From the NCBI GenBank assembly GCA_963921825.1, contig OY997594.1, forward strand, positions 35,446,956 to 35,510,955: a stretch of 64,000 nt of DNA, read 5' to 3'. How positions within the stretch are numbered: position 1 is the first letter of the stretch; the number at the start of each line of letters is the position of its first letter. Below the pieces are notes generated by a model. The model was not told the DNA's origin, did not search any database, and saw only the letters and a program-made list of their open reading frames with translations. Below, one piece after another: positions 14,630 through 52,665 of this stretch. Both the position numbers and the translations under genes were made by a program. The DNA comes from Erodium maritimum (taxonomy: Eukaryota > Streptophyta > Magnoliopsida > Geraniales > Geraniaceae).

Positions 14630-16763
14630 GAGCATGAACAACAGAAAGGACCTTGGTCAGGGAGTGGGAGTGCAGACCTTGTGCTGACTGGACAAAAGTC
14701 AGGGAGTGGGAGTGCAGAAAAGTGGGTGTTTTGTAACAGAAAGGACCTTGAGGTCCTGGGAGTGCAAAACAGTGCTGACTGGATTACTATTTGATATTTT
14801 CCTGTTTTATTTAATTCGTTATCATAAACCGTTTAATTTAGTTATAATTTAAACAATTTTGGAAATCAATAATTAATGACAATCAATAATTAATAAATTC
14901 AACACGAATATAAATGAACTTCTAATTTTATTCAACCCCTTTTAATACAACCCAAAACAAACCAGCTCCAAGAGCACAAACGACTACTCGTCATCATGGA
15001 AACCAGCTCCAAATCGATCCCATAAGTGCTCCATAAGATCTTGTTGTAGTCGATGGTGGATCTCAGGATTTAGGACACTTTGTTGAGCATCCACTCGTTG
15101 CTGGTATTGCAATGGCCCTCCGTGGTGCCATCGTTCCGGTGGTGTCCAATTAGGCATTTCTGGAGGTTGCGCCCACAACAACTCCTCCTCCCCATACTCG
15201 TACCGGTCGCGCTCATCCTCTACAATCATGTTGTGTAGAATTATGCAAGTGTGCATGATATCAGCCAAAGTGTGTTTGCTCCAACTACGAGCGGGACGGG
15301 AAATGATGTGCCACCTTGCTTGAAGTACTCCAAAAGCCCTTTCAATATCTTTCCGAGCACCTTCTTGGGATCTAGCAAACAACTTCTCTTTGGGCTCGAA
15401 GGGATGCCGAATAGTCTTCACAAACCGTGCCCATGCTGGGTAAATGTCGTCAACCAAGTAATAAGGTCGGTCGTACCGATGGCCGTTGATGTAGTACTCA
15501 ACAGCAAGGTCTTGGCCGTAGTAAGCGTCTTGGAATAAGTGGCTGTGGTTGAGGACGTTGATGTCGTTGTTCGATCCAACCATCCCGAAAAATGCATGCC
15601 AAATCCATAAATCACGGGACGCTACAGCTTCAAGCATAATTGTCTTTTCCCCGTGGTGACCTCCCCGTCCATGGGCTCCCTGCTCTTCGGTTGGGCAGTT
15701 CTTCCACTTCCAATGCATACAGTCAAGACTCCCCGCCATTCCGGGAAACCCTCGGTTGTACCCTTCTCGGAGTAAGCGGTCCATGTCAGTCGGTGTGGGT
15801 GTACGCTCATACTCAGCTCCGAAGACCTCAATGACGGCCTTGCAAAACTTACGTAAACATTCAAGTATGGTGCTTACCCCCATGCACAGAGTTTCGTCCA
15901 GTGAATCGGCCGCGGACCCATACGTAAGCATCCGTATAGCGGCGGTGCACTTCTGTTCCGTTGATAACCCCGGCCGTGAGGCAGCGTCGGGCCTCTGTTC
16001 GAAGTAGTCGTCGTGAGCCTTCACCGCGTTCATAATCCGTTGGAAAAGCGGTTTGCACATACGGAACCGACGCCTGAACATGTCAGGGCCGTATAAGGGT
16101 TGTTCGTCAAAATAGTTCGCCATCAATTGGATGTGGGCTGCCGAACGACCTCTGTTAATCTCTCGGCGCATTGGTTCCCCACGGATGGCCCTCTGGACCC
16201 TTGGCATTACTGTCTGCATCTGCCTCTCCATCATCCGCCGGAATCGTCGCTCAACTGGCTGCATTTGGGCTGCCATCTCCTCATATGTCGGCAGTTGGGC
16301 TGCCATCTCCTCATACGTCGACATCCGGAAAGCCAGCTCCTCGTATGTCATCTCCTCAGCGTCGGACATAACCTCGTCGTTGGACATTTTCAAAAATAGC
16401 GAGTAGGAAGTGAGAATGAAAGAGTAAGTAGAGAATGGTTTGACAAAAATGAGGAATGCGGTTTGGTATTTATAGGGTTCATTTTATCTGATTTTTGAAT
16501 TAAAAAAAATAGCCGTTGGAGTTGACCGTTGCCAACGGTCGGGACACGTGGCGGCACCGGAGCCTGCCAGCGCAGGCCAGGGCGCGAGGGCGCGTCCAGC
16601 GCGCTCGGCCAGACAGAGGGGAGCGGGTGCGGGAGATTGGGGAGCGGGAGCGCGAAAATGAGGAGCGGGAACGCAAATTTTCGCGTCTGCAGCGGACTGG
16701 CCAGCGTCCTGCGTTTCCGGCGCGCGCGGAGCGAGGAGCGGGCACGACCCGTTGTCCTTGCTC
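14630..16763 (-). mobile_element. Inner PIF/Harbinger element carrying transposase only
   Basis: The left end GAGCATGAACAACAG and the right end (minus strand GAGCAAGGACAACGG) are inverted repeats flanked by TTA on both sides (14627-14629 and 16764-16766). It is inserted a few bases from the right tip of the outer Harbinger, splitting that terminal repeat. It contains one intact transposase gene and no ORF1. The inner edges of its noncoding arms resemble those of the outer element. It is the younger insertion because it lies within the other. Confidence 0.9.
14984..16387 (-). CDS. PIF/Harbinger DDE transposase, intact
   Basis: This 467-residue protein catalyses excision and insertion of Harbinger elements at three-base TWA/TNA targets, with help from an ORF1 partner. 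The ATG at 16387 (MSNDEVMSD) is the first in frame and matches the position of the ORF1 start in the sister element. Residues 15-42 contain three (T/S)YEEMA(A) repeats, and a helix-turn-helix-like region lies near 143-185. The DDE catalytic residues are visible: Asp222 in GSLDCMHW, Asp275 in GSNNDINVL and Glu349 in DIERAFGVLQARW, followed by the LHNMIVE motif. The frame is open throughout, in contrast to the broken ORF1 nearby. A promoter-like TATTTATAGGG region lies upstream at about 16468-16476 on the plus strand. Whether it is expressed cannot be told. Confidence 0.95.
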   Translation of the reverse strand: MSNDEVMSDAEEMTYEELAFRMSTYEEMAAQLPTYEEMAAQMQPVERRFRRMMERQMQTVMPRVQRAIRGEPMRREINRGRSAAHIQLMANYFDEQPLYGPDMFRRRFRMCKPLFQRIMNAVKAHDDYFEQRPDAASRPGLSTEQKCTAAIRMLTYGSAADSLDETLCMGVSTILECLRKFCKAVIEVFGAEYERTPTPTDMDRLLREGYNRGFPGMAGSLDCMHWKWKNCPTEEQGAHGRGGHHGEKTIMLEAVASRDLWIWHAFFGMVGSNNDINVLNHSHLFQDAYYGQDLAVEYYINGHRYDRPYYLVDDIYPAWARFVKTIRHPFEPKEKLFARSQEGARKDIERAFGVLQARWHIISRPARSWSKHTLADIMHTCIILHNMIVEDERDRYEYGEEELLWAQPPEMPNWTPPERWHHGGPLQYQQRVDAQQSVLNPEIHHRLQQDLMEHLWDRFGAGFHDDE

Positions 16764-25027: not shown

Positions 25028-25686
25028 GGAGAATGTTATTTGTAAAGAGCTAGTGTTTGCAAAGGTATAGTCCAAGTTGAAAATGGAAATTATCATCTGT
25101 TGGCTATAGAACACAAGAAATCTTGAGGCATAATCTTTGAGGGTAATTTGCATGCTTTGGTGAGATATATTTCTGTTTTGCTGGTAATCGGAGATGACCG
25201 TCTTATGGTTGAGATTTAATACAAGCTTTTCCTTAAAATTTGTGGTGTTCATTCATTATGGCAGGATAGTTACAGGGTCCAATCTTACTGAATTATAGCT
25301 TTAAGCTTGATCGATGTTCTGTCTTGACAAGTACGTACCTGTTTTGTTGTTGTTATTGTGATTACCATTTGATCTACAGTGCCAGTCGTTGTATGGCAAC
25401 ATTAGACATATCTCAGATCCTCCATTTGAATGTATTTGTGCATGTCCACATTCAGGTTATTTTACAAGCTGGTTCATGATTAGTTTTGTTGAATTTGCAG
25501 GGTGGAGTATGATAGAGTTGCAGATGTTCCAGTCCTAAAATAAGATTGGAGCATGGGGAGGGCAACTGATATCATATGTATTAGTTTTGTTACATCCTTA
25601 TGGTTGTAGTAAGGCGTTGACTCTTAGTTTGTTGCAATTAATGAGGACCCCGAGATGGACTTGTTCATTTTGTTTCTACAATTATA
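25028..25686 (+). other. NRPB1 3' untranslated region and flank
   Basis: No coding potential was seen after the stop. A possible 3'-UTR intron runs from a GTATAG donor at 25065 to a TTTGCAG acceptor ending at 25500. Transcript ends cannot be fixed, but the sequence becomes unique AT-rich DNA just before the MULE target duplication. Confidence 0.4.
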
Positions 25687-26376
25687 ACAAAATAAGGGAA
25701 CGATTTATTAAAAAGGCCTTCTGAGGCTAATTTATTGCAAAAAAACCTTCACATGTTATATGTTTTGTAAAAAGACCTCCACTTTATGTTTTCCAATATT
25801 ATCCTTTTGTAATATTGGAAAAAAACCCTAAATCTCAGCCCCCCTTTTCGCACCCAGAAAACAGCCGGCCGACGACCTCCATATCTAAAAAAAATTCCGG
25901 CGTCCACCACGTTCCCCGTCGCCGTCCACCACCGTCCAAAGCCCATTGAGTCCATTTAAGCAATCCTCAAAGTAAGGTAAGCTTGATTTCATCATAAATT
26001 TGAAGCTAGTGAATTTCAGTTATAGGTTTGAGTAGATCTTCGAATGTAGGAGTGGAAAAACGATAAGTTATGGTTTAATGTGTGTGTAAACTTAGTGAAA
26101 TAAACAAATGGTAGAATTTGGTGGAATAGATTAATATGTCGTAGGTTTTGTGAAGTTTCTGAAATGGTGAACCAGTAGGGCCGATCGGCCTCGGATGGGG
26201 AAGACGAGCTCACCGATCGGTCTCGTATGCACGTGAATATATACGAGCCGGACGGCTGATATGTCAACCGATCGGGTGACCGATCGGATGGGTTATTTGT
26301 GGGACGGCTAATTGCATATACTAAATCATACTCGATTAGTACAATATGTCCTTATGGGGTTGTAATTGTTACAGGA

Positions 26377-28820
26377 ATGGGTGAAATTTTAGTCCGTGCT
26401 ACTTACGGTGGGGAATATAAGCTAGTGGATGAGAAGTATGATTGGATATCAACAACAAACAATGGTTGTGTTAGCCTTATTGTGGATGATAATACAACGC
26501 TGAAGAAAGTGAAGGAGCGCCTGTATTCCGAAATCGGGGTGAATGAAAGGGAGATAGAACTGAAACTTAGTTTTGTAGCTGTTATGCCCAATTTTGTAGG
26601 AGTTATCCCAATAGAGAAAATCTACGATGATTTCACTCTTCGGGGTTTTGTACTGAAGAACAGAATTATAGGTGCCAGAACCGTGTTACGTGTAGAGCTG
26701 AGCAAGAAAGATACAGTTTGTGAGGAAGATGATACTGTTGAACAGGGGGTCAACAATGTACCGGAAGCTGTTGCATATGAGTATGATGAACATGACAATG
26801 GGGGGCATGACGCTTATTTTGAAGTTGGTATTTGTAGTGTTGCAGGTAATCCAAATAATGTAGATAACCCAGTTATTCGGCGGAGAGAACGTGATACGGA
26901 AGCACAAGCATCATCTCCTACGCCACCATCGATAAGCTTGGATAATATCGAGGAGAACCGTGAAATGGTGGAGTATGTTCATAGAAATGAGGAGTTTCCT
27001 GCGGATTCGGTGGATCCAGAACAAAGCACTGTCGGTTTTAGGGATGTGTCAAGTTTAGTAGTTGGTAAAGAGTTTCCGAACAAGAGAGCACTGATGAGTT
27101 ATCTGAAAGACATTTCAATTAAGGGTGATTTTCGGATAAAACGTGATAGATCTTCAAAGACTTTATACATTGCAAAATGTGCTGGTGCTACTTGTGGGTG
27201 AAGAGTGCGTGCAGCAAAAGATCGCGGATCCCGTGAAACGTTCTCCATTAGAACGTATGAGTCTTTACATACTTGTTTGGTTAGTGAACGGAACTCCCGA
27301 AAAGGTAAATTGACCACGGAAGAGATTGCGTGTAGGTTGGTAAAAGAAAATAGTGAAGTAGAATATATTCCCAAACCACGTGCCATTCAAAACAAGTTGG
27401 AGTTGGACCAGATGGGCTTTTATAAATACTGACAATGTTGGAGGGCAAGAACACTGGCGATGATTAAACTTGTAGGGGACCCAGCTTCAAGTTATGGATT
27501 ACTCCCTGTTTATTTGCAGCAGGTTCGGAAGATGAATGCAGGTGTAGTAACTCATTTGGAGGTGGATGCGGAGAGTAGATTTAAATATGTTTTCATAGCA
27601 TATCGGCCATGTATTGAGGGATTTAACTATGCCTTGAGAAAAGTGATCTTAGTAGATGGTACGTGGTTGAAGACAAAGTATAAAGGGGTACTGATAATGG
27701 CAAGCAGGGAAGATGGTAATGGTCACCAATATCTTGTGGCTTGGGCTGTAGTTGACTCGGAGAACAACGAATCATGGAAATGGTTCTTCCAAAAGTTGAG
27801 GTCGGAGATCCCGGATGGGGACGACTTGGTTATCCTTTCGGATAGACATGTAAGTATCAGCAATGCAGTGTCGATCGTCTACCCAGAAGCCCAACATGGG
27901 CATTGTAGGTGGCATCTGACCCAAAATGTGAGAGAGAAGGTAGGGGCTAAGGAAAAAAAAACAGATTATCGAAGTTGTTTCAAAAAGTTGCTGATGCGTA
28001 CACAATGGAGAGGTTCCATGACAAGTACGAGCAACTGAAAGAAATGTACCCGAAGGCGACAAAATATTTGGAGGAGACAACCATACAACGTTGTCAATGG
28101 GCGAGATCTCACTTCGTAGGGTCGCGGTACAATATAATGACAGCGAACGGGGTTGAGTCTATCAACAATGTAATAAGAGAAGCGAGAAAGCTGCCTGTTA
28201 TAAAGTTGTTGAACATGATGCAGGAAAGGGTTACCGAATGCTTCATGCAACGTCTGGATGTGATGAACAAGATACCGAACTCCCATACTATAACTCCAAA
28301 GGTAGAGAAAATCATGTCTGCAAGCAACAAGCTAGTCTCGCATATGCAGATAACACCACTGAACACACACGACGAGTATCAGGTGAGGGCTGAACATAAT
28401 GACGTATTGGTTCATTTGGGGATGAGGCAATGCAGTTGCCGGGAGTTTGACATAGACAGAATTCCTTGTGCTCATGCCCTAGCGTGTTGTGAGCATGCCA
28501 ATATAGATCTGTATGACTTGTGCTCGAACTATTACACGCTACAAAAATGGGCTGAAGCATATTCTGGGACTGTGTACCCAGTGTCCCGTACAGAAGAGTG
28601 GAATATTGATGATTTTGATCGTGAAGTTCTTATCGATGTTCTTCCTCCAGACTATGAAGCGAAACGCGGGAGACTGCAGGAAAGAAGAATTCCTTCAGGA
28701 GGTGAGGTTCAACGAGCGACTCAAGCGGCTCCAAAGCGTCCCAGGAAATGTGGACATTTTGCTACCGTGGGTCACAACAGACGAACATGTCCTTCGCTTC
28801 GATCTGCATCTAATGTTTAG
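26377..28820 (+). pseudogene. MuDR-type (MULE) transposase, broken
   Basis: A MULE transposase normally cuts and inserts the element. The first ATG after a TGTTACAG acceptor-like site is taken as the start. In order the gene shows an N-terminal domain with a ubiquitin-like look (VSLIVDDNTTLKKVKERLYS), the MuDR DNA-binding region with a CAGATCG Cys cluster (about 27060-27270), and the DDE-type core (VDGTWLKTKYKG, LVILSDRHVSI, HCRWHLTQNV). A SWIM zinc finger follows (CSCREF...CAHALA), then a C-terminal zinc-knuckle-like GHNRRTC. It is broken by TGA at 27199-27201 and 27430-27432, both where the family usually has Trp, and by a frameshift at the A9 run 27953-27961. Three intact blocks remain. 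Truncated proteins could still be made but would lack a joined catalytic core. Confidence 0.92.
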
Positions 28821-29259
28821 TGCAGGTATGTTTCCATTTATGATAGACTGTGTGTATTTATTTATTCTTGAATATGGTACTATTTGCTGAGTATACTTTG
28901 TTTGAATTGCATGTGTTGAATGCATTTCCATTTCCATTACATGCGAGGAATGCATTTATGTTTGGGATGGGATAGTGGTGTATATGCATGAAGCCGATCG
29001 GCAACGGCGGGAGCCGAACGGCTTAACTGTGAAAAAATAAGATCTGTTCTGTTGCCCGATCGGTCAAGGATGTGGCCCCAGACGGCGCCGAATGGGTTAA
29101 CAACTCATATAAACCAAACATCGTTCAAATACCACAAGTCACATGTAGTTTGATTCAAGTTAAACGGTAAACACATTACAACCCTACTTTATTACCACAA
29201 AGACTCTCATATGGAGTTGAAAATTTGAGGTCTTTGTGTCCGATACAAACCAACCCATA

Positions 29260-29529
29260 TTACCAACGGGTAGGAGTACAATCTTGGTGAGTGAAGGACA
29301 AGACGAAATGTCGAAGTCCTTCGAGCTGCTCCAACACGATACATGCATTATTCTCGTCGGCATCTGTCCATCCACTTCTATTCGCCTGTCTCAGCTCGTC
29401 CATCAGTGCATCAGCCTTCACTTGGACCCGAAGAAAACTTATCCTAATCTTCTGAAGCTTATCCAGCCTCTCCTTGTGTTCAAGTTCAACACGCTGTGTT
29501 GTAATGATGTCTCTTAAAGGTGCAGACAT
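29260..29529 (-). CDS. Small coiled-coil gene, family A copy 1
   Basis: An 89-residue protein starting MSAPLRDI, not recognised from any known family. It shares with the two copies at 30291-30485 and 30758-30952 the order MS(A/S)P, a Leu-rich heptad helix (LDKLQKIRISFLRVQVKADA), and an ending like L(E)GL..FV.SFT. Where the sisters stop after SFT, this copy reads through a further nine residues (HQDCTPTRW), and it has a 15-residue insertion before the final helix. A TATA box (29592-29598) lies 63 bp upstream. It sits between the transposase and protease genes of the MULE and is transcribed in the protease direction. It looks like a small coiled-coil adaptor or oligomerisation protein, but function is unknown. 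Confidence 0.6.
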   Translation of the reverse strand: MSAPLRDIITTQRVELEHKERLDKLQKIRISFLRVQVKADALMDELRQANRSGWTDADENNACIVLEQLEGLRHFVLSFTHQDCTPTRW

Positions 29530-29591
29530 TGTGGATGAAGTGAGTGAAGAGTAGTGATGAGTGAGTAGTGAGTCAAGAGGGTTGGAGTGGG

Positions 29592-29598
29592 TTTTATA
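29592..29598 (-). promoter_or_regulatory. TATA box of family A copy 1
   Basis: The minus-strand context is GCCTATAAAAC, 63 bp before the ATG. The same GCCTATAAA context recurs upstream of all three family B genes. Confidence 0.55.
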
Positions 29599-29699
29599 GG
29601 CGTGGTGAGGTCCATAAATGTAAGTTGGGTGGTGGGTTCCATTAATATGGGGTTGGTGGTTGTTGGGAAAACAGGGTTAGTGGTTGTGATGACTTAATT

Positions 29700-30175
29700 T
29701 GATGGAGGAATGGCCCCAAACAGCGCTTTATGGGGCAAAAATTAGGGTTTGTTGAAGTCGGATGGAGGGATGGCCCCATACGGCGCCGGATGAGGTCAGT
29801 ATTAGGGTTAGGGTTTAGGGTTGGTCTTAGACTGCGCCGGATGAGGTCAGTATTAGGGTTTGTTGAAGTCGGATGGAGGGATGGCCCCATACGGCGCCGG
29901 ATGAGGTCAGTATTAGGGTTAGGTGTAGGGTTGTTCTCAGACAGCGCCGGATGAGGTGTCAAACAGCGCCGTATGGTGTCAATCGGACAGAGGGTTGGTC
30001 TCAGACTGCGCCGGATGAGGTCAATATTAGGGTTAGGTGTAGGGTTGGTCTCAGACAGCGCCAGATGAGGTGTCAGACAGCGCCGTATGGTGTCAATCGG
30101 ACAGAGGGGGGTCCCAAACAGCGCCGTATGGGGCCAATCGGACAGAGGGATGGACCCATCCCGCGCCGTTTGGGG
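29700..30175. repeat. Minisatellite with GCGCCGGATGAGGTC units
   Basis: Repeats of variable length (roughly 45-75 bp) are built from modules such as GATGGAGGGATGGCCCCATA, CGGCGCCGGATGAGGTCA, GTATTAGGGTT and GTCTCAGACAGCGCC. Similar GCGCC-GT-TGG words recur near 37230-37650 at the other end of the same MULE. Confidence 0.75.
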
Positions 30176-30290
30176 ACCAATTCCTATTGTTTATTTGTTG
30201 GAAGGTCCCATTCAATTAACATTCAACGACTAACATTACAAACCTAATGATTACCACAAAGCCTCACATCTGGAAAATGGAAATGGTCTC

Positions 30291-30485
30291 CTAAGTGAAG
30301 GACCGTACAAGCTGTAAAATGCCCCCGAGGTGGTCCAAAAACTCCTTCAACTCCTGCTTAATTGGATTTGTATTCTCTACGACCCTCTGAAGACTTATCT
30401 TCAACTGCTGGAGCTCGGCCAATAACTCGGTGTATTCAAGTTCACCACTCTGTGGTGGAGTGATGTCCCAAAAAGGTGCAGACAT
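30291..30485 (-). CDS. Small coiled-coil gene, family A copy 2
   Basis: A 64-residue protein starting MSAPFWDITPP. Its middle (LLAELQQLKISLQRVVENTN) and end (LVRSFT) match copy 3 closely and copy 1 more loosely. The heptad spacing of Leu/Ile suggests one amphipathic helix that would dimerise. A TATA box (30550-30556) is 65 bp upstream, and the first bases of the leader resemble copy 1 (TCACT...CATCA(C)AATGTCTGCACC). The frame is intact, unlike the two large genes of the same MULE. I do not recognise the family. Confidence 0.6.
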   Translation of the reverse strand: MSAPFWDITPPQSGELEYTELLAELQQLKISLQRVVENTNPIKQELKEFLDHLGGILQLVRSFT

Positions 30486-30549
30486 TGTTGATGAATAGAG
30501 TGTAGAGTGAGTAAAGAGTAGTGATGAGTGAAGTGAAGTAAAAAGTGGT

Positions 30550-30556
30550 TTTTATA
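30550..30556 (-). promoter_or_regulatory. TATA box of family A copy 2
   Basis: The minus-strand context is CCCTTATAAAAACC, 65 bp upstream of the start codon. Confidence 0.5.
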
Positions 30557-30757
30557 AGGGTGACTGAAGAATATATTCCTTCCGTAAAGTAGGAGTACAA
30601 TTCTACCCTAAACATTACAACCCTAATTCTCACGACTCTCTTGCAACGTGAGTACAATTCAACACTAATTATTACCACAAAGCCTCACATACGACATTAG
30701 AAAATGGAGGTATTTGTAATCCGATACAAGCAAACTCACATTAGCAAGTGGGATCTC

Positions 30758-30952
30758 TTAAGTGAAGGACCGTACGAAACGTAATAGGCCTTCGAGCTGG
30801 TCCATGGCCTCCTTCAACTCCTGCTTGAGTTGATCTGCCTTATCTTCCACCCTCTGAAGACTTACCTTGATCTGGTGAAGATCGTCCAATATCGCAATGC
30901 ATTCTTCATCAGCAAGCCGTGGTGTATTGCTGCCCGAAATAGGTGAAGACAT
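30758..30952 (-). CDS. Small coiled-coil gene, family A copy 3
   Basis: A 64-residue protein starting MSSPISGSNTPR, followed by a long heptad helix (IAILDDLHQIKVSLQRVEDK, then ADQLKQELKEAMDQLEGLL) and the family ending FVRSFT. This is the clearest coiled coil of the three. It has the same length as copy 2, its own TATA box (31007-31012), and sequence between copies that is not conserved beyond the promoter region. That pattern suggests separate genes and not exons of one. No signal peptide or membrane segment is seen. Function unknown. Confidence 0.6.
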   Translation of the reverse strand: MSSPISGSNTPRLADEECIAILDDLHQIKVSLQRVEDKADQLKQELKEAMDQLEGLLRFVRSFT

Positions 30953-31006
30953 TGTCGATAAACTTAGTAAAGAGTATTGCTGAGTTCATTCAAGTGAATA
31001 TTAGGG

Positions 31007-31012
31007 TTTATA
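31007..31012 (-). promoter_or_regulatory. TATA box of family A copy 3
   Basis: The minus-strand context is CCCTTATAAACCC, 55 bp upstream of the start codon and similar in context to that of copy 2. Confidence 0.5.
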
Positions 31013-31021
31013 AGGGTAACT

Positions 31022-31145
31022 AAAGAATATATTCCTTCCGTAAAGTATGTCCCATCTAATTGACGTCGGAAGGAATATATTCCTTCCGTAAAGTATGTAC
31101 CATCTAATCGACGTCGGAAGGAATATATTCCTTCCGTAAAGTATA
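31022..31145. repeat. ~53-bp tandem repeat containing a 20-bp palindrome
   Basis: About two and a half units share AATATATTCCTTCCGTAAAG, then TATGT(C/A)CCATCTAAT(T/C)GACGTC. Units are joined through the perfect palindrome GGAAGGAATATATTCCTTCC. A further partial unit lies at 30570-30590, upstream of family A copy 2. Confidence 0.85.
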
Positions 31146-31330
31146 TTCAGTCTCAATATGTGCAGATTGGATCCCAAACTGCGCATATTGGGACCCAATC
31201 TGCGCATATTGAGTCCCAATAAGCGCAGTTTGGTACCCAGTCTGCGCATATTGAGGCCTAAACTGCGCAGATTGGGACTCAATCCGCGCATAATGAGTCT
31301 CAATCTGCGCAGTTTGGGTCCATGGGATGA
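31146..31330. repeat. 21-bp minisatellite, block 1
   Basis: About eight degenerate units of the form (A/T)TTG(A/G)G(T/A)C(C/T)CAATCTGCGCA. The unit is the same family as at 31908-32025, on the other side of family B copy 1. Confidence 0.8.
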
Positions 31331-31416
31331 CCGATTGGCCCACAGCAAGCAATGTAAAACCCATAAACTTATTTTATTTCATCCAAATAGCATAATCATA
31401 CAGCCTCATTACTACA

Positions 31417-31764
31417 TTACGCATCTAGCATAAAGTTAAGGAGCCTCTCCTCAGCTTCTCTAGATTTGTCCATCCACTCTACGAAACGTTGAAACCATGG
31501 AGGCTCCTCGTAAGGAAGCCTCACAATGTCACGATCGTTTTCAAAAGGAGGGAATTCAAATGGGTGTTCACCATCTAGAGGTGGAGGACATTCTACATTA
31601 TTCTGTTGGACGAGTTCCTTTATTCGGTCCAACCGCTGAATTGAGTCATCGAGTATGCGGTCGTACTCAACGGCCCATGGTGGTGGCGCCACAAAGACGA
31701 CTGTTCCGACGTTCTCCCGTCGCCTCCACCTACGCTCAAGACGAGGATCGTGGTTGGGTTCCAT
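31417..31764 (-). CDS. Small Trp-motif gene, family B copy 1
   Basis: A 115-residue protein starting MEPNHDPRLERRWRRR, not recognised. It has a basic N terminus, a helix (YDRILDDSIQRLDRIKELVQ), a Pro-rich linker (PPPLDGEHPFEFPPF) and the family signature EEPPWFQRFVEWM, followed by a short C-terminal helix ending LLNFMLDA. The copies at 32209-32599 and 33055-33348 share the same order: M(E/D)P, a helix with QRLD/QRLA, EEP(A/P)WF..(F/Y)V(E/Q)WM and a hydrophobic tail. A TATA box lies at 31830-31836. The frame is intact. It could be an interaction module exposing the Trp-Phe patch; this is inference only. Confidence 0.6.
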   Translation of the reverse strand: MEPNHDPRLERRWRRRENVGTVVFVAPPPWAVEYDRILDDSIQRLDRIKELVQQNNVECPPPLDGEHPFEFPPFENDRDIVRLPYEEPPWFQRFVEWMDKSREAEERLLNFMLDA

Positions 31765-31829
31765 CCTGTCCCAAAAAGTATACCTATAAAATGAGGGTTG
31801 GAGTGAAAATTATTCAAGTGGAGAGTGGG

Positions 31830-31836
31830 TTTTATA
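31830..31836 (-). promoter_or_regulatory. TATA box of family B copy 1
   Basis: The minus-strand context is CACGCCTATAAAACCCACTC, nearly identical to that of family A copy 1. It lies 66 bp upstream of the ATG. Confidence 0.55.
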
Positions 31837-31907
31837 GGCGTGTAAGGAATGAAGAGGGTTGGAGTTGGTGTGTGTACGCATTAATGGAGCCATTAATGTG
31901 TTGACTG

Positions 31908-32025
31908 TGTTGAGTCCCAATCTGCGCAGATTGAGTCCCAATCTGCGCAGATTGAGTCCCAATCCGCGCAGGTTGAGTCCCAATCCGCGCAGATTGAGTC
32001 CCAATATGCGCAGGTTGAGTCCATG
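31908..32025. repeat. 21-bp minisatellite, block 2
   Basis: Five near-identical 21-bp units, TGAGTCCCAATCTGCGCAGA and variants, directly upstream of the family B copy 1 promoter. They create a long repetitive minus-strand frame that is not a gene. Confidence 0.9.
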
Positions 32026-32208
32026 TGCATATTAATGGTACCCATTAATGTGTTGACTGCGTTGATTGTAGTGCATGCATTGGGACGTGCAGATTTTGTA
32101 TAGGAAATGTATCAAATAAAAGCATTGCCATTCATTGCATTAATTCTACAAACATAAACGTCATTTAGTCAAGTACCAACATTATTTTCCAAAAAATAAA
32201 AACAAACA

Positions 32209-32599
32209 CTACGCAGCAAGCAGACTGTTAATGAGACTCTGAACAATTTGTTGGTTTCAACCCATCCACTGTACGTAACCCTGGAACCAAGCTGGCTCCT
32301 CGAACGAATGAAGAAGGTCATCCTCGTTCATCGGTGGTTGAATAAATGGGTTTTCACCAGGAGGGAGTGGAGGACACGGTAAAATTTTCTCGCGCATGAC
32401 TGCCTCCAGTTGGTCCAACCGCTGGTTCCGGTGCTTGATACAGTCGTTCGGGCATTCGGACTATTCTGCCGTCGGCCAACATTGTGACGTATTCTCCGGC
32501 TAGCTCCCGTCTTATCCACGCACGCTCCGCACGCTCCGCACGCTCCGCACGCTCCGCACGCTCCGCACGCTCCGCACGCTCCGCTTGGTCGGGATCCAT
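32209..32599 (-). pseudogene. Small Trp-motif gene, family B copy 2, broken
   Basis: It starts MDPDQAER and runs into an Ala-Glu-Arg triplet repeated seven times, encoded by a 9-bp DNA repeat. After about residue 50 the family similarity continues in another frame (NQRLDQLEAV, PPLPPGENPF, FEEPAWFQGYVQWMG), so one frameshift lies near 32440-32460. A TGA then interrupts the C-terminal helix (about 32255) before the family-like ending SLINSLLAA and a stop at 32209. The 5' leader has a probable 83-bp intron (32601-32683) and a TATA box (32746-32752). It was a gene like copies 1 and 3 and is now inactive in full-length form. Confidence 0.65.
32518..32584. repeat. 9-bp repeat coding Ala-Glu-Arg
   Basis: CACGCTCCG is repeated in tandem seven times, in frame with family B copy 2 and preserving its frame whatever the copy number. 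Such arrays expand and contract by slippage. Confidence 0.9.
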
Positions 32600-32745
32600 T
32601 CTGTCACAAACATATACGTGGTTACACTACTAAAACAACAAACACATCTAAAAAATTATAATGCAAGAACATTATTCGACTACCTATTCCTTGAAAGCTG
32701 AGAGTGAAGGGGGTTGGAGTACAAATAATGGGGTAGCTAAGCCCC

Positions 32746-32752
32746 ATTTATA
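32746..32752 (-). promoter_or_regulatory. TATA box of family B copy 2
   Basis: The minus-strand context is CAGCCTATAAATGGGG, about 147 bp before the ATG. The longer distance is explained by the leader intron. Confidence 0.5.
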
Positions 32753-33054
32753 GGCTGGTGACAATGAATATGGTTGGAGTGGGTGGATGAGTGGGTGTGT
32801 ACCCATACATGTGTCTTGGGTGGAGAGACATATTAATGAGAGACATTAATATGTTGCGTTTCTTGGATGTAGTGATTGAATAGGGACGTGCATATTTTGT
32901 ACAAGATATGTATCCATGATAAAAATCAATTCAGAGCAATTCCAGTAAACAACAAAAAAAACACTGTGTTGGACAACAAAAGCATTACACTGAAGAACTC
33001 AACTTAAAGAGCAATAATACAAAATTGAAGGTTGAAGAACTCAACTAATACACC

Positions 33055-33348
33055 TCAATTTAAAAGACCATCAATAATACGCCCGCAAACAGCTTTGTTC
33101 CCTTCCATCCATTCTACAAAACTCTTGAACCACGCTGGCTCCTCCACAGATTGAATGTCACCCTGAAACTGGTCTACCCAAGGATGACCTTGTTCGAACC
33201 GGGTTTTTCCTTCCGCTAGTAGTTGGCGTTGAATCAACGGTATATTTATCTCGCGTGCACGTCGCTCCATGTTGGCCAAGCGTTGATGATGTTCCTCCAT
33301 GATTTGGTAGTATTGCTGCAACCACGTTGGTTGAGGTGCAGGTTCCAT
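33055..33348 (-). CDS. Small Trp-motif gene, family B copy 3
   Basis: A 97-residue protein starting MEPAPQPTWLQQYYQIMEEH. A helical stretch with HHQRLANMERR is followed by a charged linker and the family signature EEPAWFKSFVEWM, then a C-terminal helix ending IIDGLLN. It is preceded by a leader intron (33350-33423) whose acceptor TTTGTGTCAG is joined to the base before the ATG, as in copy 2. A TATA box is at 33497-33503. The frame is intact. Its nearest neighbour is the last exon of the Ulp1-like gene, about 350 bp away on the same strand. No family in my knowledge matches. Confidence 0.6.
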   Translation of the reverse strand: MEPAPQPTWLQQYYQIMEEHHQRLANMERRAREINIPLIQRQLLAEGKTRFEQGHPWVDQFQGDIQSVEEPAWFKSFVEWMEGNKAVCGRIIDGLLN

Positions 33349-33496
33349 CCTGACACAAACATACACATGTTTAAAGGTTCGAAAATAACAGACATATTTA
33401 CGAAAGAACAATGTTACCAATACCTGATGGCCAAAGATTATGTGATGTTGGAGGATTGGATGGATGGAGTGAGTGAAATGGGAAGTGTAGAGGTCC

Positions 33497-33503
33497 ATTT
33501 ATA
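33497..33503 (-). promoter_or_regulatory. TATA box of family B copy 3
   Basis: The minus-strand context is CACGCCTATAAATGGACC, 149 bp before the ATG including the leader intron. Confidence 0.55.
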
Positions 33504-33707
33504 GGCGTGGTGTGGTGTGGTGACAAGGGTGAAGATCAATCAATGAGAATTCAACATGTTGGTGAGATGCAGTTGTGTATTTAATTGGAGTTATTTTAAT
33601 GCAAACATTCAGGTATGCGTACAAACATCAGATATGAGTCAAACCATCAAAAATATATTCGTCACTTGTCATTCAAAAGTTTATCAGTCATCCAACATAT
33701 ATACATA

Positions 33708-36700
33708 CTACAAAAGATATTCGTCATCCGTCATCACATGCATACAATATTTGATGCGAAACTGCGGCACAAGTGTATGTCGTATGTGGTCTTTGAATTC
33801 CAGTTCCGCCATCCCCACCTCGATGAACTTGAGGGTGTAGATCCCACTATCGTCCATCCTACAAACAAACACCAATATAATAAGCATGACATACAAGACT
33901 GTACTGCAAAGGTAAAATAAATAAGTCTGATACTTACTTCACGGCTTGCGGTATGAGTTCCACCCTCTCGAAGGTAAAATCCGCGTTGTATGCGGATAAT
34001 GTCTCCGATGTCCCGGGTAAAATCCGGAAGAGCATCTTAGGGAGCATGTTGACATACGGGGTCATCAACACCTTCATCTCGAACTCTGATATCTGGGGAC
34101 GGTAGCTGTCGTACACTTGGATTTTTTTTGCTTGCACGTCCACAACCAACAATATCCAATGCTTGTTCTTGTGGTTCACTGGAAAATAAATCTTCTGCGC
34201 AGACATACACGTGCAGGGATAGACATCCGGCTTCTCCCCTCGAGCATAGTTCATGAGCTCAAGGTCCGGTTCTATATTCGCCTCATACTCTGCACATCAT
34301 AGCTTGTGGAACACACAATCCAGCACTACATGGCTCTGCCTGAAAACATTCGGAAAATGTCGTTGTCTGCACCGTATGCCTGACAACGCATCGTCCATAT
34401 GCTGCACAAAGTTGAAAACAATATAAATTATACATTGCCAGGAAAAATATACTCATATGCTGCTTAAAATAAAATACTAACCTATGGTGTGACCCATTCG
34501 CCAGGGGTTGCCAATGGCCGGTAATATGAGGCGGGTAGGCCTCTGTAGAGGACTCCGTCCTGCAAACCGGTACGCACGGTACCAGAGTAATTCCTCAACC
34601 GTTGGGGAATCTTCGCTGCAGGGTTCCAACTGCGGATCAGCCTCTGATCAAGGACACCGAGCAACTGGGTCCTCTTCCTCTTTCTGGAACTGGGCGGATC
34701 AGGTTCAAATAGGTGACGGGGAAGGGTAACCACGATCGATGGTGGCTCCCGAGGCTCCGAGGGTTCCCCCGGAGCCTGAGTCTGTGCCCCCGGAGCCTGA
34801 GACTGTGCCTCATCACCGACACCTTCATCGTCGGTCTGTACCTTCTCCCAAGACGACAGTTCCCGCGCAGGAGTTTGACTGACCTCCTCCTCCCCTTCGA
34901 CCTCCAGACCTTCCCAAAAAGTCGACAGTGACCCCTCCATAGACTTACCCCCCTCTTCCCCTCCTCCAAGTACCCCTCCCGCACTACGTGTCTGAGAATC
35001 AACTACCACGATCGGTGCTGGAACTGGAACCTGTCCCTCCTCAACCCCCTGCTGAACTGCAACCTGTCCCTCCTCACACATCACCTGTCCCTCCTCCCTC
35101 CTCACCTGAACATCAACCTCACCCCCCATCTGAACATCAACCTCACCTCCCATCTCAACCTCATGGACCATATCCATATCCGGGGGTCCATGGCTAGACT
35201 CTCCAACCTGTTCCCGTCTTCCTCCTGCGTCACCTGATCCACGAGGCTGAGATTCATCATCCCTTTGAGATCCGGCTTCATGCGATCGATGAGACCGATG
35301 CGGGCAATGTGATCCTCGGGAGTCGCCCCCAGATGCACGGTCGGCAGGCCTGGGCAGCGGGTCACGGGCAGCGCCCTGGGTCCGGAGTAGATGAAGGATC
35401 TCATCTAGTTTTCCCCCAAACTCTCTCCGCAACGCTCCGATGGCGCCCCCAAACTCAGTCCGTACCGCTCCAATAGAGTCCGCAACGGATTGGATCTTGC
35501 CCTGCAACTCTCCTATCTCAACGCGGACACCTCTAATATGATAATCTACTGCGGCCTGTTCCCCCTGACGACGAGGGGTCTGGGGTAACTCTCCTACCCC
35601 GATGGTGGCCTCTTCCCGGCGACGAGAGCACTCAGCTCCATCCCGAACCGGATCCGGCGGTGTCTGCTCTGTACCCATCACCTCATCCCCGGACTGATGA
35701 TCAGGTGTCGGCTCCCTTCCAACTGGCTCTGCTTGCTCCATACCCTCATCATCCCATTCTATCTCCCCTCCAGCCTCCAAAATTTCCGCAATCCGCTCAA
35801 GCGTCCTATCCGCTACCCTGTCGGGTATGACTCCCACATTTTGATTATGCGGAAGTGCCCTCTCTATTTCTGTGGGTATTAGGACACCCCGAGTCACCTG
35901 CACCTGCACACACATAACCATTAAATTCAATTTATATAACCAACCTACACCTACAATTATACGTCTACACTTATATTTTTTTACCTCGTCTTTCTGAAAT
36001 TTGGTTGTCACCTCATCCGCCGATGGGGCCTTGGGCTATTTCGTGCGCCACTTAAAAAAACTCGGTAGGTCCTCACTGTACTGTGGGTCCACCGTCCCCC
36101 ACTTACTTGCCAGTGCTTCCATAGACTCAAATACAAAAGGCTGTTACACAAATCAAATTATTAATAACCAATACGTAAATTAATTGATATTAATGCTCTT
36201 ATTCAAATTGTATTAAATGTTTTACGTACCGTAAATATCGGGAGCATACCGCATATGGTGTATGTGGCCCCCTGTCTGCCAGGGACGAGCGATTGGAACT
36301 TCGCTCTCAACTCTCAAATACAATCCTCCCTCAGATGTCGGAAGGAGATATACCCCCACGGGTACCGGTTGAACATGTCCAGGTTTTCTACTAATCCCAT
36401 CCACTTTGGCTCAATGGGTGTTGTCACTTTTGTGTGAGGTATCAACGCATCAGTGACGAACAGCAGCTGAGCCATCTTCACAATATTATAATCTGGATCG
36501 GTCCTCCGGGTCCTCGGTTTCAACCGGGTAGTCACAAGGGCGGTCAACTTGTTTGCAGGTCTAGTGGAGACACTCCACGCTGGTTGTGACCAAAATGTCT
36601 TTTCTCGAATGCTGTGGAACTCAATTGTCTCCTAAAATTTTCATCTCCACGGATCGGTGTTGAGCAATTCAACCCCGTCATCAATGCGTATTCCTTCAGG

Positions 36701-37047
36701 GACAACCTGATAGGTTTCCCTTTCACCACGAACCACATTTCGGAGTCCCTTCTCACCGTGGTACTCCTGACTAATAGCATCCACGCCAGGTTGTTGGAGG
36801 GCTGGAACTTCTCCGGTAACCTGGTGAACATCCCGAATGGACCCGCTCTTATTGCTGCAACTGTCAGCGGGTCCGCATCCTTCAGCTCATTGTACTTCTC
36901 ATACAAGACCTTATACCCACACCTGGCTGTCACACGACAGTTGAAGTACTCGCCATCTTGCAGTTCTGTTTCAATTCTTGGAAACCGTTGAGGTGCTTCT
37001 GACGGAGTTGCACTCGGTATCGAAACAGAACCTACTTCCTCTTCCAT
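33708..37047 (-). pseudogene. DUF1985/Ulp1-like cysteine protease gene of the MULE, broken
   Basis: Kaonashi-type MULEs carry a gene with an N-terminal DUF1985 domain and a C-terminal C48 (Ulp1/SUMO protease-like) domain. Exon 1 starts at ATG 37047 and shows DUF1985 (WFVVKGKPIRLSLKEYALMT, then YPWGYISFRHL after a frame change near 36560). A short exon and a large hydrophilic exon (to 34482) follow, rich in Glu, Gly and Pro with an MGGEVDVQ repeat. The protease exon has the His (NKHWILLVVDV) and Asp (QVYDSY) of the catalytic triad. The last exon (33858-33708) has DDSGIYTLKFIEV, where Ser (AGT, 33846-33848) replaces the nucleophilic Cys. In-frame stops lie at 36314-36316, 36036-36038, 34482-34484 and 34297-34299. 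It is clearly not an active protease gene. Confidence 0.85.
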
Positions 37048-38103
37048 TGACTATATTATGATTATAAGATGCATCCTAACATTATCTAGTAATCCAAATT
37101 GTAGTAGTAATATTATCAATATAAAATAACATTAACTAGTAATCAAAACTGTCATGGGCCGAACGGCCTTTCACCTAATTGTCCTTGGCCGATCGGGCAA
37201 CAGAGAGTTTGGTCACTTTCCCAGTCGGCTCATACTGACCCCATTCGGCGCCGTTTGGACCTTGCTACACAAGATCAAAACGCCACGTTTTACTACCGAT
37301 ATGCGCCGTCTGGAGCCTTTGGAAGGCAAATGATTGGGGGCCAAAACGACGTCGTCATTGGTGAAGGGGTGTCAGTTTGGGCCATGGACTGGGCCTCACC
37401 GAGCTTATTGGGCCGTGGACTGGGCCTCAACCACCTTAGTGGGCCCAACCTGCTCCGTTTGGTTCAACCACATGGAGCTGGTCGGCCCCAAAACGACGTC
37501 GTTATGGGGTCTCATTCGGATCCGACTGGGCTCCCCAATCGGAGCGGATTGGGGACAAAACGTTGTCGTTGTGTCCCCGACCTACTCCGTCTGGAACTCC
37601 AGCGACTCAGTGGGCTAAAACGCCACCGTTTTAGCCCCAATCAGCGCCGTCTGGACCCCAGTCGACGACACTGATTCCTTCTCAGGCAACGACCCTATTC
37701 CCTTCTACGCCTCCCCCATTCGCCGTAGCCTCACCGGCGATTTACAGTAACTAAACCCTAGGTTTTGCAAAAGGGAACTAAATCTAACACAAAATGTACG
37801 AGTTCAAATCGGACGTACCTGGTTCGACATTGTTGGGGTTCAAAATGTAGGAATTTCCTCTCGCCGGCGTCGTTGCTTCCTCGGAGATGATCAGCGCTCT
37901 CGAAGTCGTCGACAATCGTATTTCTGACTTTGACTCAGTGACGAAGACGAAGAGGCAAAGAAGAAGAAAGGCGAGGGTATAACCGGCAGTTCATAATGTT
38001 TTGAATCAAAAGAAAAACAAAAATTCGAATTATTTCGAATGCCAAATTACCGAGGCTACCCCGCAAATATATTAGCGTGATAAGGCCCTTTCCAATAATT
38101 CCT
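37048..38103. other. Right subterminal region of the MULE
   Basis: No gene was seen. It contains a CCGATCGG palindrome (37189-37196), repeated AAAACG(A/C)C words such as CCCCAAAACGACGTCGTTAT near 37490, and GCGCCGTTTGG/GCGCCGTCTGG modules that resemble the minisatellite at 29700-30175. A GC-rich stretch before 37930 looks like the leader of the Ulp1-like gene or captured sequence. The last 45 bp form the terminal repeat. Confidence 0.55.
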
Positions 38104-38262
38104 ACAAAATAAGGTTACAAATTCGTATGCTCTTTCTTCCTCTGATATTTTTTGAACAAAAATAAGTAAGAAGGAGAAGAGATTGAATGACGTTGAAGAA
38201 AAGAAAAACTATGATATGTTATTCTTACATTATGCGTTGGGACACGTAATCGAAAAGTAGAA

Positions 38263-46439: not shown

Positions 46440-47577
46440 TACTTTTTCTTTCAATCTTATTCGCTCTCGTTGAGACCTTCGCCTAGCTCTAGCCTTAATT
46501 GCGCTATGGAGCTTTTTCCTATTGTCGTCGTTGTCGCCGCTGTCGTGCACCATGCCCAGTCGACACTTCGGGCTGGGTCTGTAGGTCACGCCGCCCTGGT
46601 GTTCCCCCAGTCCCATCCGATCGTTTCCCTCGCAGACCACGTTTGGTGTGGGGGATAAATATTGGTGGGATTGGCTGCCTTCGCCCCCACCCCCTCCCTC
46701 GCCTTGGGCCGATCCTACTCTTCTATGGCCTTGCTGGTCTCACAGCCTTCGCTGTCGCTGTCAGCTGGACGTCCAGGAGGAATGCTACGCTACCCAACGG
46801 TGACTTCTTCTCCAAGGTGTGGGGCGGTCCCGCCTCGCCTAAACCATATCCCGACTACCCGAGCTAATCATGACCTTGCTTTGGTGCCCAGGGAGGACGA
46901 CGGAGATTCTAGGGTTCCGAGATTTCTCCCCTCTCGAAACCATGATAGGGGGATAACTCGGGACATGGAGATATGGTCGGCGTACTCCATGATCATGACG
47001 ACGCGGGGTTGGTCCTAGAGCTTGGTTCGGGACACGTATGGGTGGAGGAGGAGGACGACAGAGGCGGTTGCCACGTTTTCTCGGTGAGGCTGGGCGTGGA
47101 GGCGAGCTAGGGTTTGGATACCTTACGGTGGGGATGCTCTTGAGTCGGCCAGTGGGGCCGCTGACTCTCCGTCTATGGTCTTGGGGAGAGACGCGATGAC
47201 CAATGCGGAGGGGGAGGCTGCACGAAAGCTGGTTAAGTCGTCGCCCTCGCCCCGGTATCCTCAATGCCACCTTCCTGCATATCAGAGGGGTCTGCTGCGG
47301 TGTACTCCGGGGAGAGGGCCTCGTCCCCGTGTGTGCCAACGGAAGTCCAAACCACCCCTCTGGTTTCGATGGAGCAGAACTCAACCGAGGATCGTGAAGT
47401 CGGTGCTGCACTGCAAAGACTCGTGGAGGGAGCTTCCCATAGTACATTGACAATGGACCCGATACCTAAGGCAAGATTGTCTCTAGGAAGGGGAACCAAC
47501 ATGACAATGGAACCGATACCTAACTCGGGCCCCCAGTTTCCTACCAGAGACATCAGCCAGCCGCCCGCGACAGGCCT
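46440..47577 (+). other. GC-rich retroelement-like remnant, left part
   Basis: A GC-rich block with overlapping short frames in all phases (for example 46839-47453 on the minus strand and 47264-47599 on the plus strand). None matches a protein I know. The plus-strand frame ending at the solo LTR resumes after the LTR at 50949, so the two parts were once continuous. The right part ends in a run of A near 51520-51530. Together this suggests an old non-LTR element, but no reverse transcriptase is visible. Confidence 0.35.
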
Positions 47578-48179
47578 TGTCACGCCCCAATTTCAATAAA
47601 ACGAACTCGGGACGCGAACATTTAAAATAAGAAAACACCTTGAAACCTTTTCCATTTAAACACTTTAAAATACATCATTTGTTCAACAAAAATAATAATT
47701 ACAACTTAAAACACGTCCCAACAAGTGGACTAAAAACGAGGTATCCGTCGCTAGACTCAAAACACCCAGAAACCCGCTTCAAGCTCTTCAAGCTTCAGAA
47801 GCTCACCTAGTCCAGACTACGAACGGTACCTGTAGGAAAAGCAGCTAGGGGTGAGCGTTCGCTCACCACCGCGAATAACAGACTGACTACGGCATAATTA
47901 GTCGACAAAGCCAGTAACACTAAAACCAAACCCAACACTGGGACTATAGTCCCCAACTCAAGTACCCAACTGACCCACAACCCGTTACCTTCCTCAACAG
48001 ACTCAACACTCGATAACACAATGTAGACCCGACACAACTATCGACGACCTCCTCCAAGGACACGACAGAAAGACTACACAACGCCAAACAAGATCACAAA
48101 GGATCGCACACCAAACAAGATCACAAAGGATCGCATACCAGCTGCTCAGTAACCTCTCCCACTCACACGAACACGGATC

Positions 48180-48400
48180 ATGCTAGCCAAAGAATGCTTA
48201 CAACCTGTGATACTCAAACTCGGACCAGGCCAGCCAAAGAATGCTTGCAACCTGTGTTACTCTAACTCGGACCAGGCCAGCCAAAGAATGCTTGCAACCT
48301 GTGTTACTCAAACTCGTGTCAGGCCAGCCAAAGAATGCTTGCAACCCGTTGATACTCAAACTTGGTCAGGCCAGCCAAAGAATGCTTGCAACCTACCGGG
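48180..48400 (+). repeat. ~47-bp minisatellite in solo LTR 1
   Basis: About five units contain AGCCAAAGAATGCTTGCAAC, CTGTG(A/T)TACTC and AACTCG. A few scattered single copies of the unit follow near 48610-48700. Confidence 0.9.
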
Positions 48401-48713
48401 ATCCGCAATCACAATCACACGCAAATTCATCAACCAGTAACAACACAAGTTCAACACTCACAGGCACTCATGGCCACCAAGACACCAACAGTAAAACTCG
48501 AACTCAACAGCCCCACAGGCACTCACGGCCTCCCAAGACACACCGATAGTAAGACACGGACTCAACAATCCCACAGGCACTCACGGCCTCCCAAGACACC
48601 AACCATAAGGAACGCTTGCAACTTACCGAGACTCTAACTCGTAAGCCAGCTAAAGGAAGCTTGCAACCGCCCCGAGACTCTAACTCGGTCAGGCCAGCCA
48701 AAGACACCAACCT

Positions 48714-49060
48714 TAGTACACGGGCCCTCAAGGCCACCCAAAACACCAACAATTGACTACGGGCTCTCATGGCCACCCAAGACACCAATTCAAATACACG
48801 GGCTCTCAAGGCCACCCAAACTCAATCAATAAATAATACGGGCTCTCAAGGCCACCCAAACTCAATCAATAAATAATACGGGCTCTCAAGGCCACCCAAA
48901 ACTCGATAATAAAATACGGGCTCTCAAGGCCACCCAAACTCAATCAATAAATAATACGGGCTCTCAAGGCCACCCAACCTCAATCAATAAATAATACGGG
49001 CTCTCAAGGCCACCCAAACTCAATAATAAAATACGGGCTCTCATGGCCACCCAGGACACC
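48714..49060 (+). repeat. ~40-bp minisatellite in solo LTR 1
   Basis: About nine units of ACGGGCTCTCAAGGCCACCC plus AAACTCAATCAATAAATAAT, the middle ones nearly identical, so the expansion is recent. Confidence 0.9.
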
Positions 49061-52292: not shown

Positions 52293-52295
52293 TTA

Positions 52296-52662
52296 GAGCA
52301 TATACAATATAAGAGCTTGAGTTAGGGGTTTGGATGCTGACTACATAAAAGAGTGGGACTCAAGAGTCAAAATAAATTGTGTTTTACAATGGGAGTCCCA
52401 TATAGGATCTCGTATTGTGAGTGCACCAATCATAATTAGTTAAATCTGAATTTTTGTATTTTTTTAAAAAAGAGGACACATGTCGAGCAATGGGTCCCGG
52501 GTCCCGGATTAGCGGGACGCGAGCCACGGCCCGACTCAGGTTTTTTGTGGGACGCGGGACACGAAAAAGCCATCCCACAACGGGACGGCTCGCGTCCTGC
52601 GTCCTGCAAAAACCCGAGCCGGGACGCACGCAGCAACCCGGGCCGTCCCATTGTTCATGCTC
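52296..52662. mobile_element. Harbinger MITE (367 bp)
   Basis: The left end GAGCATATACAATA and the right end (minus strand GAGCATGAACAATGG) match the termini of the two Harbingers at 12.4-16.8 kb, and TTA flanks both sides (52293-52295 and 52663-52665). There is no coding capacity. The right half is GC-rich and self-complementary (GGGACGCGAG / CTCGCGTCC). It could be moved by the intact transposase in this window. Confidence 0.85.
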
Positions 52663-52665
52663 TTA

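Follow-up and report, generated by a model that had tools for sequence, protein, structure and literature searches.

Two tandem families of small genes look like selected components of a VANDAL/Kaonashi-like Mutator element in Erodium maritimum

Two unrelated families of small genes, here called A and B, look from sequence comparison like selected genes of a Mutator-like element (MULE) in the plant Erodium maritimum, not like noise or captured host peptides. The element lies in a 64,000-nucleotide stretch of contig OY997594.1 (assembly GCA_963921825.1, positions 35,446,956 to 35,510,955 of the forward strand; hereafter the window, G000:C7:35446956-35510955), and all genome searches cover this one 763-Mb genome. 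Its minus strand carries A1-A3, B1-B3 and then a large gene with DUF1985 and Ulp1 domains, while the transposase gene is on the plus strand (Table 1). We class the element as VANDAL/Kaonashi-like because this large gene joins DUF1985 to Ulp1, as in the VANC/KIU type. Our leading interpretation, which we hold tentatively, takes A and B for accessory genes that belong to the element and act as partners of a SUMO-trapping anti-silencing protein.

The six genes are recognizable by homology more than by length. A first-pass annotation, made from the letters of the window alone, had called six minus-strand genes in two unrelated families of three, placed inside one MULE between the transposase and a protease-like gene, and both the gene coordinates and this location held up. 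In tblastn within the window, members of family A match one another at expectation values (E) of 3e-7 to 1e-14, and B1 matches B2 at 3e-14 and B3 at 4e-8; the match between B2 and B3 is weak (0.23), using B2 as read in the window. A and B show no relationship (hhalign probability 2.3%). No further match below 0.1 was found in the window with the six proteins, and across the 64 kb, profiles of A and B picked out the six genes and nothing else (next best E 0.76 and 1.9), which rejects the idea that A or B are fragments of the large genes. The sequence signatures given in the first pass are likewise present, namely an SFT ending in family A, with A1 extending nine residues beyond it, and EEP(A/P)WF..(F/Y)V(E/Q)WM in family B. 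Five of the six frames are open, as had been noted; only B2 is broken in the window, its ATG frame stopping after 81 aa, and its N-terminus contains a variable 9-bp repeat. Length of the open reading frames (ORFs) by itself carries little weight: with minimum lengths of 60/80/90/110 aa, the 4.7 kb contains 9/7/3/2 minus-strand ATG ORFs, not all of them among the six genes, compared with means of 3.5/1.25/0.76/0.26 and maxima of 9/5/4/2 in 300 shuffles. Because of homology, copies and selection the six genes exceed chance, and we rejected chance ORFs as an explanation.

Both families extend far beyond the window. The window region is present in many genome copies at about 90% identity, and we read 27 of these besides the window (20 stretches of 10 kb plus seven shorter ones belonging to a second subfamily). 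Among the 28 copies examined, with absent or unspanned genes excluded, complete start-to-stop frames are found for 19/26 A1, 10/19 A2, 19/27 A3, 20/27 B1, 13/27 B2 (the window's is not complete) and 11/18 B3. In the second subfamily A2 and B3 are absent in 7/7 copies, the A3, B1 and B2 regions are present in 7/7 and A1 in 6/7. Genome-wide protein searches with B1, A3 and B3 as queries each returned at least about 150 places, with identity declining gradually to 44%, 41% and 37%, respectively, among the matches listed. By hand count, 36/52 listed B1 matches at 61–79% identity over at least 106 residues are stop-free. Most of the divergent B members that were read from their start open with a basic stretch near ERRWRRREN, followed by P.W, a helix and a proline-rich turn, and they retain EEPAWF..(F/Y)V.WM; divergent A members show a heptad-like helix with an S(F/L)T ending. 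The first-pass annotation had regarded a lack of homologues in other elements as grounds for abandoning its call, and the many divergent homologues in this one genome are the contrary result. Five tandem A-family places at G000:C5:6429925-6434836, four of them interrupted by stops, and four clustered B places at G000:C6:48416616-48420645 suggest that tandem multiplication occurred more than once. Distant A and B matches also stand on opposite strands, 4–6 kb apart, at G000:C9:25586868 with C9:25590916 and at G000:C4:20875738 with C4:20881511; these pairs may represent an alternative arrangement of the gene set, one element per pair being hypothetical.

Structure prediction gives helical proteins for both families. 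For A the prediction is one 53-residue helix (pLDDT, the predicted local distance difference test, 88.8), and for B two long helices at residues 44–70 and 103–128 of the 129-residue relative L055 (mean pLDDT 71.6). All Pfam matches of A and B fall below the family cut-offs. The best weak family matches have E 0.0012 for B and 0.00012 for A, and a known fold or family was rejected for both, these matches being sub-threshold; that of A to UPF0184, for example, was taken as coiled-coil likeness.

Constraint on the reading frames is clearest across divergent elements. We compared nonsynonymous:synonymous changes with expectation on internal and terminal branches; the p-values are parsimony-based, with sites assumed independent. 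The divergent set comprises 40 genes, picked mostly among stop-free matches, and its alignments omit L038, L054, L062, L063 and L076-L085. On its internal branches, B1 orthologues show 123:58 against 142.9:38.1 expected (ratio 0.57, p 8e-5) and all B together a ratio of 0.64 (p 2e-4), with corresponding values of 0.28 for the A2 group (p 9e-4), 0.37 for the A1 group (p 4e-4) and 0.64 for all A (p 0.011). None of the shifted frames across divergent elements is significantly below one (lowest p 0.11). The median pairwise ratio of nonsynonymous to synonymous substitution rates (dN/dS) is 0.65 for B1. On terminal branches of the young copies, constraint is not significant for any gene tested, the transposase included, as is expected because such a copy has already landed. 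Internal branches of the young copies lean toward constraint for B1 (14:8 against 17.2:4.8, p 0.043), B2 (32:17 against 36.8:12.2, p 0.05) and the Ulp1 exon (5:6 against 8.8:2.2, p 0.0016); the transposase pieces and the middle ORF of the large gene show none. Neutral dN/dS, which the first-pass annotation had named as evidence against its call, is not what internal branches show across divergent elements of this genome, the A3 group apart; the tests on young copies are mostly not significant. Divergent homologues and in-frame constraint on internal branches therefore make A and B look element-owned and selected. That they are non-functional passengers, open merely through the youth of the copies, would agree with the absence of significant terminal-branch constraint in every stated frame of the young copies; given frames open at 61–79% identity and the in-frame internal-branch constraint, we consider it very unlikely.

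The small genes mostly lie beside transposases. Neighborhoods were counted for 150 A3 places, 150 B1 places, 150 transposases and 80 of 150 B3 places, and the transposases listed extend down to near 66% identity. A listed transposase lies within 15 kb of 122/150 listed A3 places, downstream in 119/122 and on the opposite strand in 119 (the same strand in 3), and within 15 kb of 99/150 listed B1 places, in all 99 downstream and on the opposite strand; for a random genome point the figure is 0.6%. B1 is found within 15 kb of 133/150 listed A3 places. Among more divergent B1 matches, a listed transposase is near 19/53 at 60–74% identity and 3/8 below 60%. In the other direction, a listed A or B gene lies within 15 kb of 84/91 transposases examined (91 of the 150, 90 at 90% identity or more and one at 86%; the A and B places used are a subset).

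These neighborhoods bear on the proposal, made in the first pass as one of two origins, that host peptides were captured and amplified in the element. MULEs often capture genes (PMC2528002), and no transposase or A gene is listed within 15 kb of 31/150 listed B1 places, a figure to be read with the near-66% limit of the transposase matches. For A3 just 3/150 listed places are without a listed transposase or B gene in that range, and neither family matches Pfam at its cut-off. With A3 and B1 places mostly beside listed transposases or partner genes, we rejected host capture, which we rate as highly improbable. A Pack-MULE was rejected too, since the element has its own transposase and no host source appears among the matches listed. 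The other origin proposed in the first pass, promoter-bearing families owned by the element, is borne out by the divergent homologues and by internal-branch dN/dS below one, whereas captured host peptides lose ground; for the packaging role also suggested there, nothing was found in its favor.

The main rival to a role in anti-silencing is that A and B are transposition co-factors, assembling with the transposase at the element ends. The genes mostly adjoin the transposase, their models are helical and oligomer-like, and mudrB, the second gene of MuDR, is apparently required for integration (PMC6446971). Nothing links A or B to the termini, however, and two complete elements of about 8 kb carry no listed A or B gene (G000:C8:8527536-8535518 and G000:C2:30086975-30095093; their transposases have 96–97% identity), although supply in trans is conceivable. 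We regard this rival as serious and, on balance, unlikely. The set is accordingly a usual part of the element, though possibly dispensable in cis.

The large gene supplies the second part of our interpretation. Its DUF1985 domain, middle ORF and two Ulp1 exons probably constitute one gene, and its orientation, reverse to the transposase, is that of the DUF1985 and/or Ulp1 genes by which VANDAL elements and Kaonashi (KI) MULEs are recognized. The first-pass annotation had located this gene correctly and called it a protease; it missed both the VANC/KIU type and a change at the catalytic position. Active Ulp1/SENP proteins have the catalytic Cys in D-C-G, whereas the second Ulp1 exon here reads D-S-G-I-Y, and Ser stands at the nucleophile position in 28/28 copies of two subfamilies. 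By degenerate pattern the Ser form occurs at 99 genome places and the Cys form at 16 (reversed controls, 0 in each case). Among the Ser-form places, 87/99 have an A or B gene no more than 8 kb away (from a subset of A and B places), in 87/87 cases on the same strand. Near one Cys-form place, C1:129193572, there is a B3-like match of 56% at a distance of about 0.5 kb. The best matches in the PDB, weak at E about 0.08, align the Ser of the domain to Ser in chains of SENP2 and SENP1, which we take to be catalytically dead C-to-S mutants. The domain resembles SUMO proteases of the Ulp1/SENP type in its match to Pfam Peptidase_C48 and in its aligned His and Asp positions, and differs from them in having Ser for the nucleophile Cys, as does the laboratory mutant C580S of Ulp1, which is inactive and traps SUMO-modified proteins (PMC3216068). 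PMC6117582 describes the domains of KIUs as potentially catalytically functional and their activity as never studied.

Each gene has its own putative promoter. A TATA box had been called for each gene, and we find TATAAA upstream of all six, at 60–72 nt from the ATG in A1-3 and B1 and at 153 and 155 nt in B2 and B3. Across copies, TATAAA is present within 230 nt upstream in 26/26 A1, 17/17 A2, 26/27 A3, 27/27 B1, 26/27 B2 and 18/18 B3. Mismatches to the majority occur in 3/905 base calls of the TATA boxes, compared with 206/12080 at nearby A/T positions (p 2e-4). An AGGTA donor within 180 nt is retained in 26/27 B2 and 16/18 B3 copies, and its conservation is consistent with an intron in the 5′ untranslated region (5′-UTR) of these two genes. 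Separate TATA boxes would also suit control of element dosage or timing by A and B (for example as repressors or decoys), with tandem copies that differ through conflict with host silencing. The variable tandem number (3+3 in the window, neither A2 nor B3 in one subfamily, five A copies in an array on C5) and the fast divergence of A paralogues fit such control, whereas Pfam recognizes no DNA-binding domain in A or B; we think it distinctly improbable.

VANDAL elements carry VANB between the transposase and the VANC-type gene. VANDAL21 (Hiun, with VANA, VANB and VANC) and its relatives resemble the present element in having a MULE transposase, a DUF1985 gene and one or more further genes, as well as noncoding tandem motif repeats and weak or no terminal inverted repeats (PMC5735166, PMC10398659, PMC6446971). 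The present element differs in its Ulp1 domain, in its other repeat motifs and in having two families with six small genes in all, where VANDAL has a single VANB. KI-MULEs share a mudrA-like gene, a reverse-oriented Ulp1-domain gene and the lack of terminal inverted repeats (PMC2528002, PMC13317346), and differ from our element in its Ser for the catalytic Cys and its two small-gene families. KIU is one of three coding genes there, and some VANC genes carry Ulp1 (PMC13317346); VANB or the third KI-MULE gene may be homologous to A or B. Likened by description alone, mudrB of MuDR is likewise an extra gene in a MULE, and its function is unclear (PMC6446971). Neither accessory genes nor Ulp1 domains are new to MULEs (PMC2528002, PMC13317346, PMC6446971); keyword searches of open-licence papers, by title, abstract and extract, gave no description of two tandem orphan small-gene families or of a fixed Cys-to-Ser Ulp1 in a MULE.

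The noncoding parts of the element carry several repeat arrays, some with palindromes (Table 1). All 7/7 CCGATCGG sites of the window fall in noncoding DNA of the element (26181-26288, 28994-29063 and 37189-37196), on either side of the transposase or ahead of the DUF1985 gene. VANC removes methylation from VANDAL elements by binding noncoding tandem motifs (PMC5735166). The published VANC21 and VANC6 (CC-type) motifs were considered for these arrays and ruled out by their absence from the element; any recognition of the arrays therefore differs.

In the mechanism that we propose, the simplest model of an anti-silencing unit here, A and B, which occupy the slot between the transposase and the DUF1985+Ulp1 gene and each have their own TATA promoter sequence, would have multiplied by tandem duplication. 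A would form a coiled-coil oligomer and B would act as a helical adaptor, and as partners of the DUF1985-Ulp1(Ser) protein they could provide oligomerization and bridging. That protein would bind the palindromic repeat arrays of the element, and its Ulp1(Ser) domain might hold, instead of cleaving, SUMO-modified silencing factors, so that the element stays expressed. The full combination, a DUF1985 protein made into a natural SUMO trap by Cys-to-Ser change together with orphan helical adaptors diversified in tandem alongside changing arrays, is a more doubtful proposition.

Several observations weigh against the interpretation of A and B as selected accessory genes in such a system. In the window's subfamily and its sister, A1, A2, A3 and B3 are neutral-like; across divergent elements the A3 group (ratio 0.64) is not significant; and a control frame of B2 shifted by two reaches p 0.02 on terminal branches of the young copies. 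Median pairwise dN/dS of A is 0.97, and 1.17 for pairs at dS 0.2–0.4, values so high that the A paralogues may have diverged quickly. Random sets of six A/T hexamers equal the TATA conservation in 3.9% of draws. The B model is of modest confidence and finds no fold match at E 0.001, the Ulp1-domain matches in the PDB are no better than E 0.08, and the VANC21 and VANC6 motifs are missing. Finally, no A or B gene is listed within 15 kb of 7/91 examined transposases, and none is listed for the two complete elements on C8 and C2.

The borders of the element are well marked. Genome flank searches, with 40 places scored per flank out of 227 and 156 candidates (the window's own included), place the left border of 39 places besides the window at 25682-25705 (mode 25700) and the right border of 39 at 38102-38113 (mode 38105). 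The direct repeat at the ends measures 11 bases and is counted as a 9-bp target-site duplication because other copies end at 38105; a duplication of this size fits the MULE range of 8–11 bp, and the borders are backed by 39 other places per side. The 11-base form of the AAAATAAGG repeat occurs once more in the window, at 46346. Compared in inverted orientation, the flanking regions match best over 15 bases at 93% and over 24 bases at 79%, and the two ends are degenerately alike as judged by eye, in keeping with the absent or short degenerate terminal inverted repeats of VANDAL and KI-MULEs. Pfam identifies the transposase by PF10551 (E 9e-24), a Mutator-type domain that places the element among MULEs, and by PF04434 (SWIM, E 3e-8); PF03108 (DBD_Tnp_Mut) is under its cut-off.

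Neighboring sequence holds an RPB1 gene to the left of the element and, beginning at 38382, a gene that starts with a C2 domain and is presumably of phospholipase D type. Elsewhere in the window, positions 1-3115 and 6146-9264 form a 3.1-kb direct repeat, 99.8% identical and 6.1 kb apart, which could be a young long terminal repeat element cut by the window edge. Two minus-strand ORFs, 14984-16387 and 13146-13877, presumably represent a PIF/Harbinger transposase and its Myb-like partner. Positions 47500-64000 contain numerous diverged repeats, direct as well as inverted, together with an ORF (58785-59429) that we take to resemble a Ty1/copia reverse transcriptase.

Table 1. Features of the Mutator-like element and its genes, in window coordinates
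Feature	Position	Strand	Basis or remark
Complete Mutator-like element, ~12.4 kb, short degenerate termini	25698..38105		Borders of other copies; termini by eye
Left 9-bp target-site duplication, AAAATAAGG	25689..25697		11-base identity at both element ends
Right 9-bp target-site duplication, AAAATAAGG	38106..38114		Direct repeat; borders of other copies
Four CCGATCGG motifs upstream of transposase	26181..26288		
Transposase gene, MULE and SWIM domains, broken in window copy	26377..28820	+	Pfam
Gene A1, 89 aa	29260..29529	-	ORF, window tblastn, copies; A1 group internal-branch ratio 0.37
TATAAA of A1	29593..29598	-	Conserved in copies
Tandem array, CGGCGCCG-type motifs, upstream of A1	29701..30181		
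Gene A2, 64 aa	30291..30485	-	ORF, window tblastn, copies; A2 group ratio 0.28
TATAAA of A2	30551..30556	-	Conserved in copies
Gene A3, 64 aa, predicted 53-residue single helix	30758..30952	-	ORF, tblastn, copies; A3-group selection not significant
TATAAA of A3	31007..31012	-	Conserved in copies
Repeats of a 48-bp unit (palindrome CGGAAGGAATATATTCCTTCCG) and then of a 21-bp unit, upstream of A3	31025..31318		
Gene B1, 115 aa	31417..31764	-	ORF, tblastn, copies; orthologues 0.57, p 8e-5
TATAAA of B1	31831..31836	-	Conserved in copies
Tandem array of a 21-bp unit (palindrome CAATCTGCGCAGATTG), upstream of B1	31910..32022		
Gene B2, broken in window (deletion and frameshift)	32209..32599	-	ORF, tblastn, copies
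TATAAA of B2, upstream of candidate 5′-UTR intron	32747..32752	-	Conserved in copies
Gene B3, 97 aa	33055..33348	-	ORF, tblastn, copies
TATAAA of B3, upstream of candidate 5′-UTR intron	33498..33503	-	Conserved in copies
Large second gene, DUF1985 and Ulp1-like	33708..37047	-	Pfam; probably a single gene
Ulp1-like domain, two exons	33938-34254, 33708-33858	-	Joined: PF02902 (Peptidase_C48), E 8e-22
AGT (Ser) codon at Ulp1/SENP catalytic Cys position	33846..33848	-	Copies, genome pattern, PDB alignment
Middle ORF without Pfam match	34482-35921	-	
DUF1985 domain	in 36544-37047	-	PF09331, E 1.7e-11

Accessory genes of VANDAL-type transposons let some plant elements resist silencing, and the two families described here look like selected orphan genes beside a VANC/KIU-type gene that has undergone a conserved loss of the Ulp1 nucleophile. 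The roles of VANB and of the KIU Ulp1 domain are unassigned in the extracts available of the literature on them (PMC6446971, PMC13317346, PMC6117582). The Ser finding makes the question of why MULEs carry Ulp1 directly assayable, as SUMO binding without cutting.

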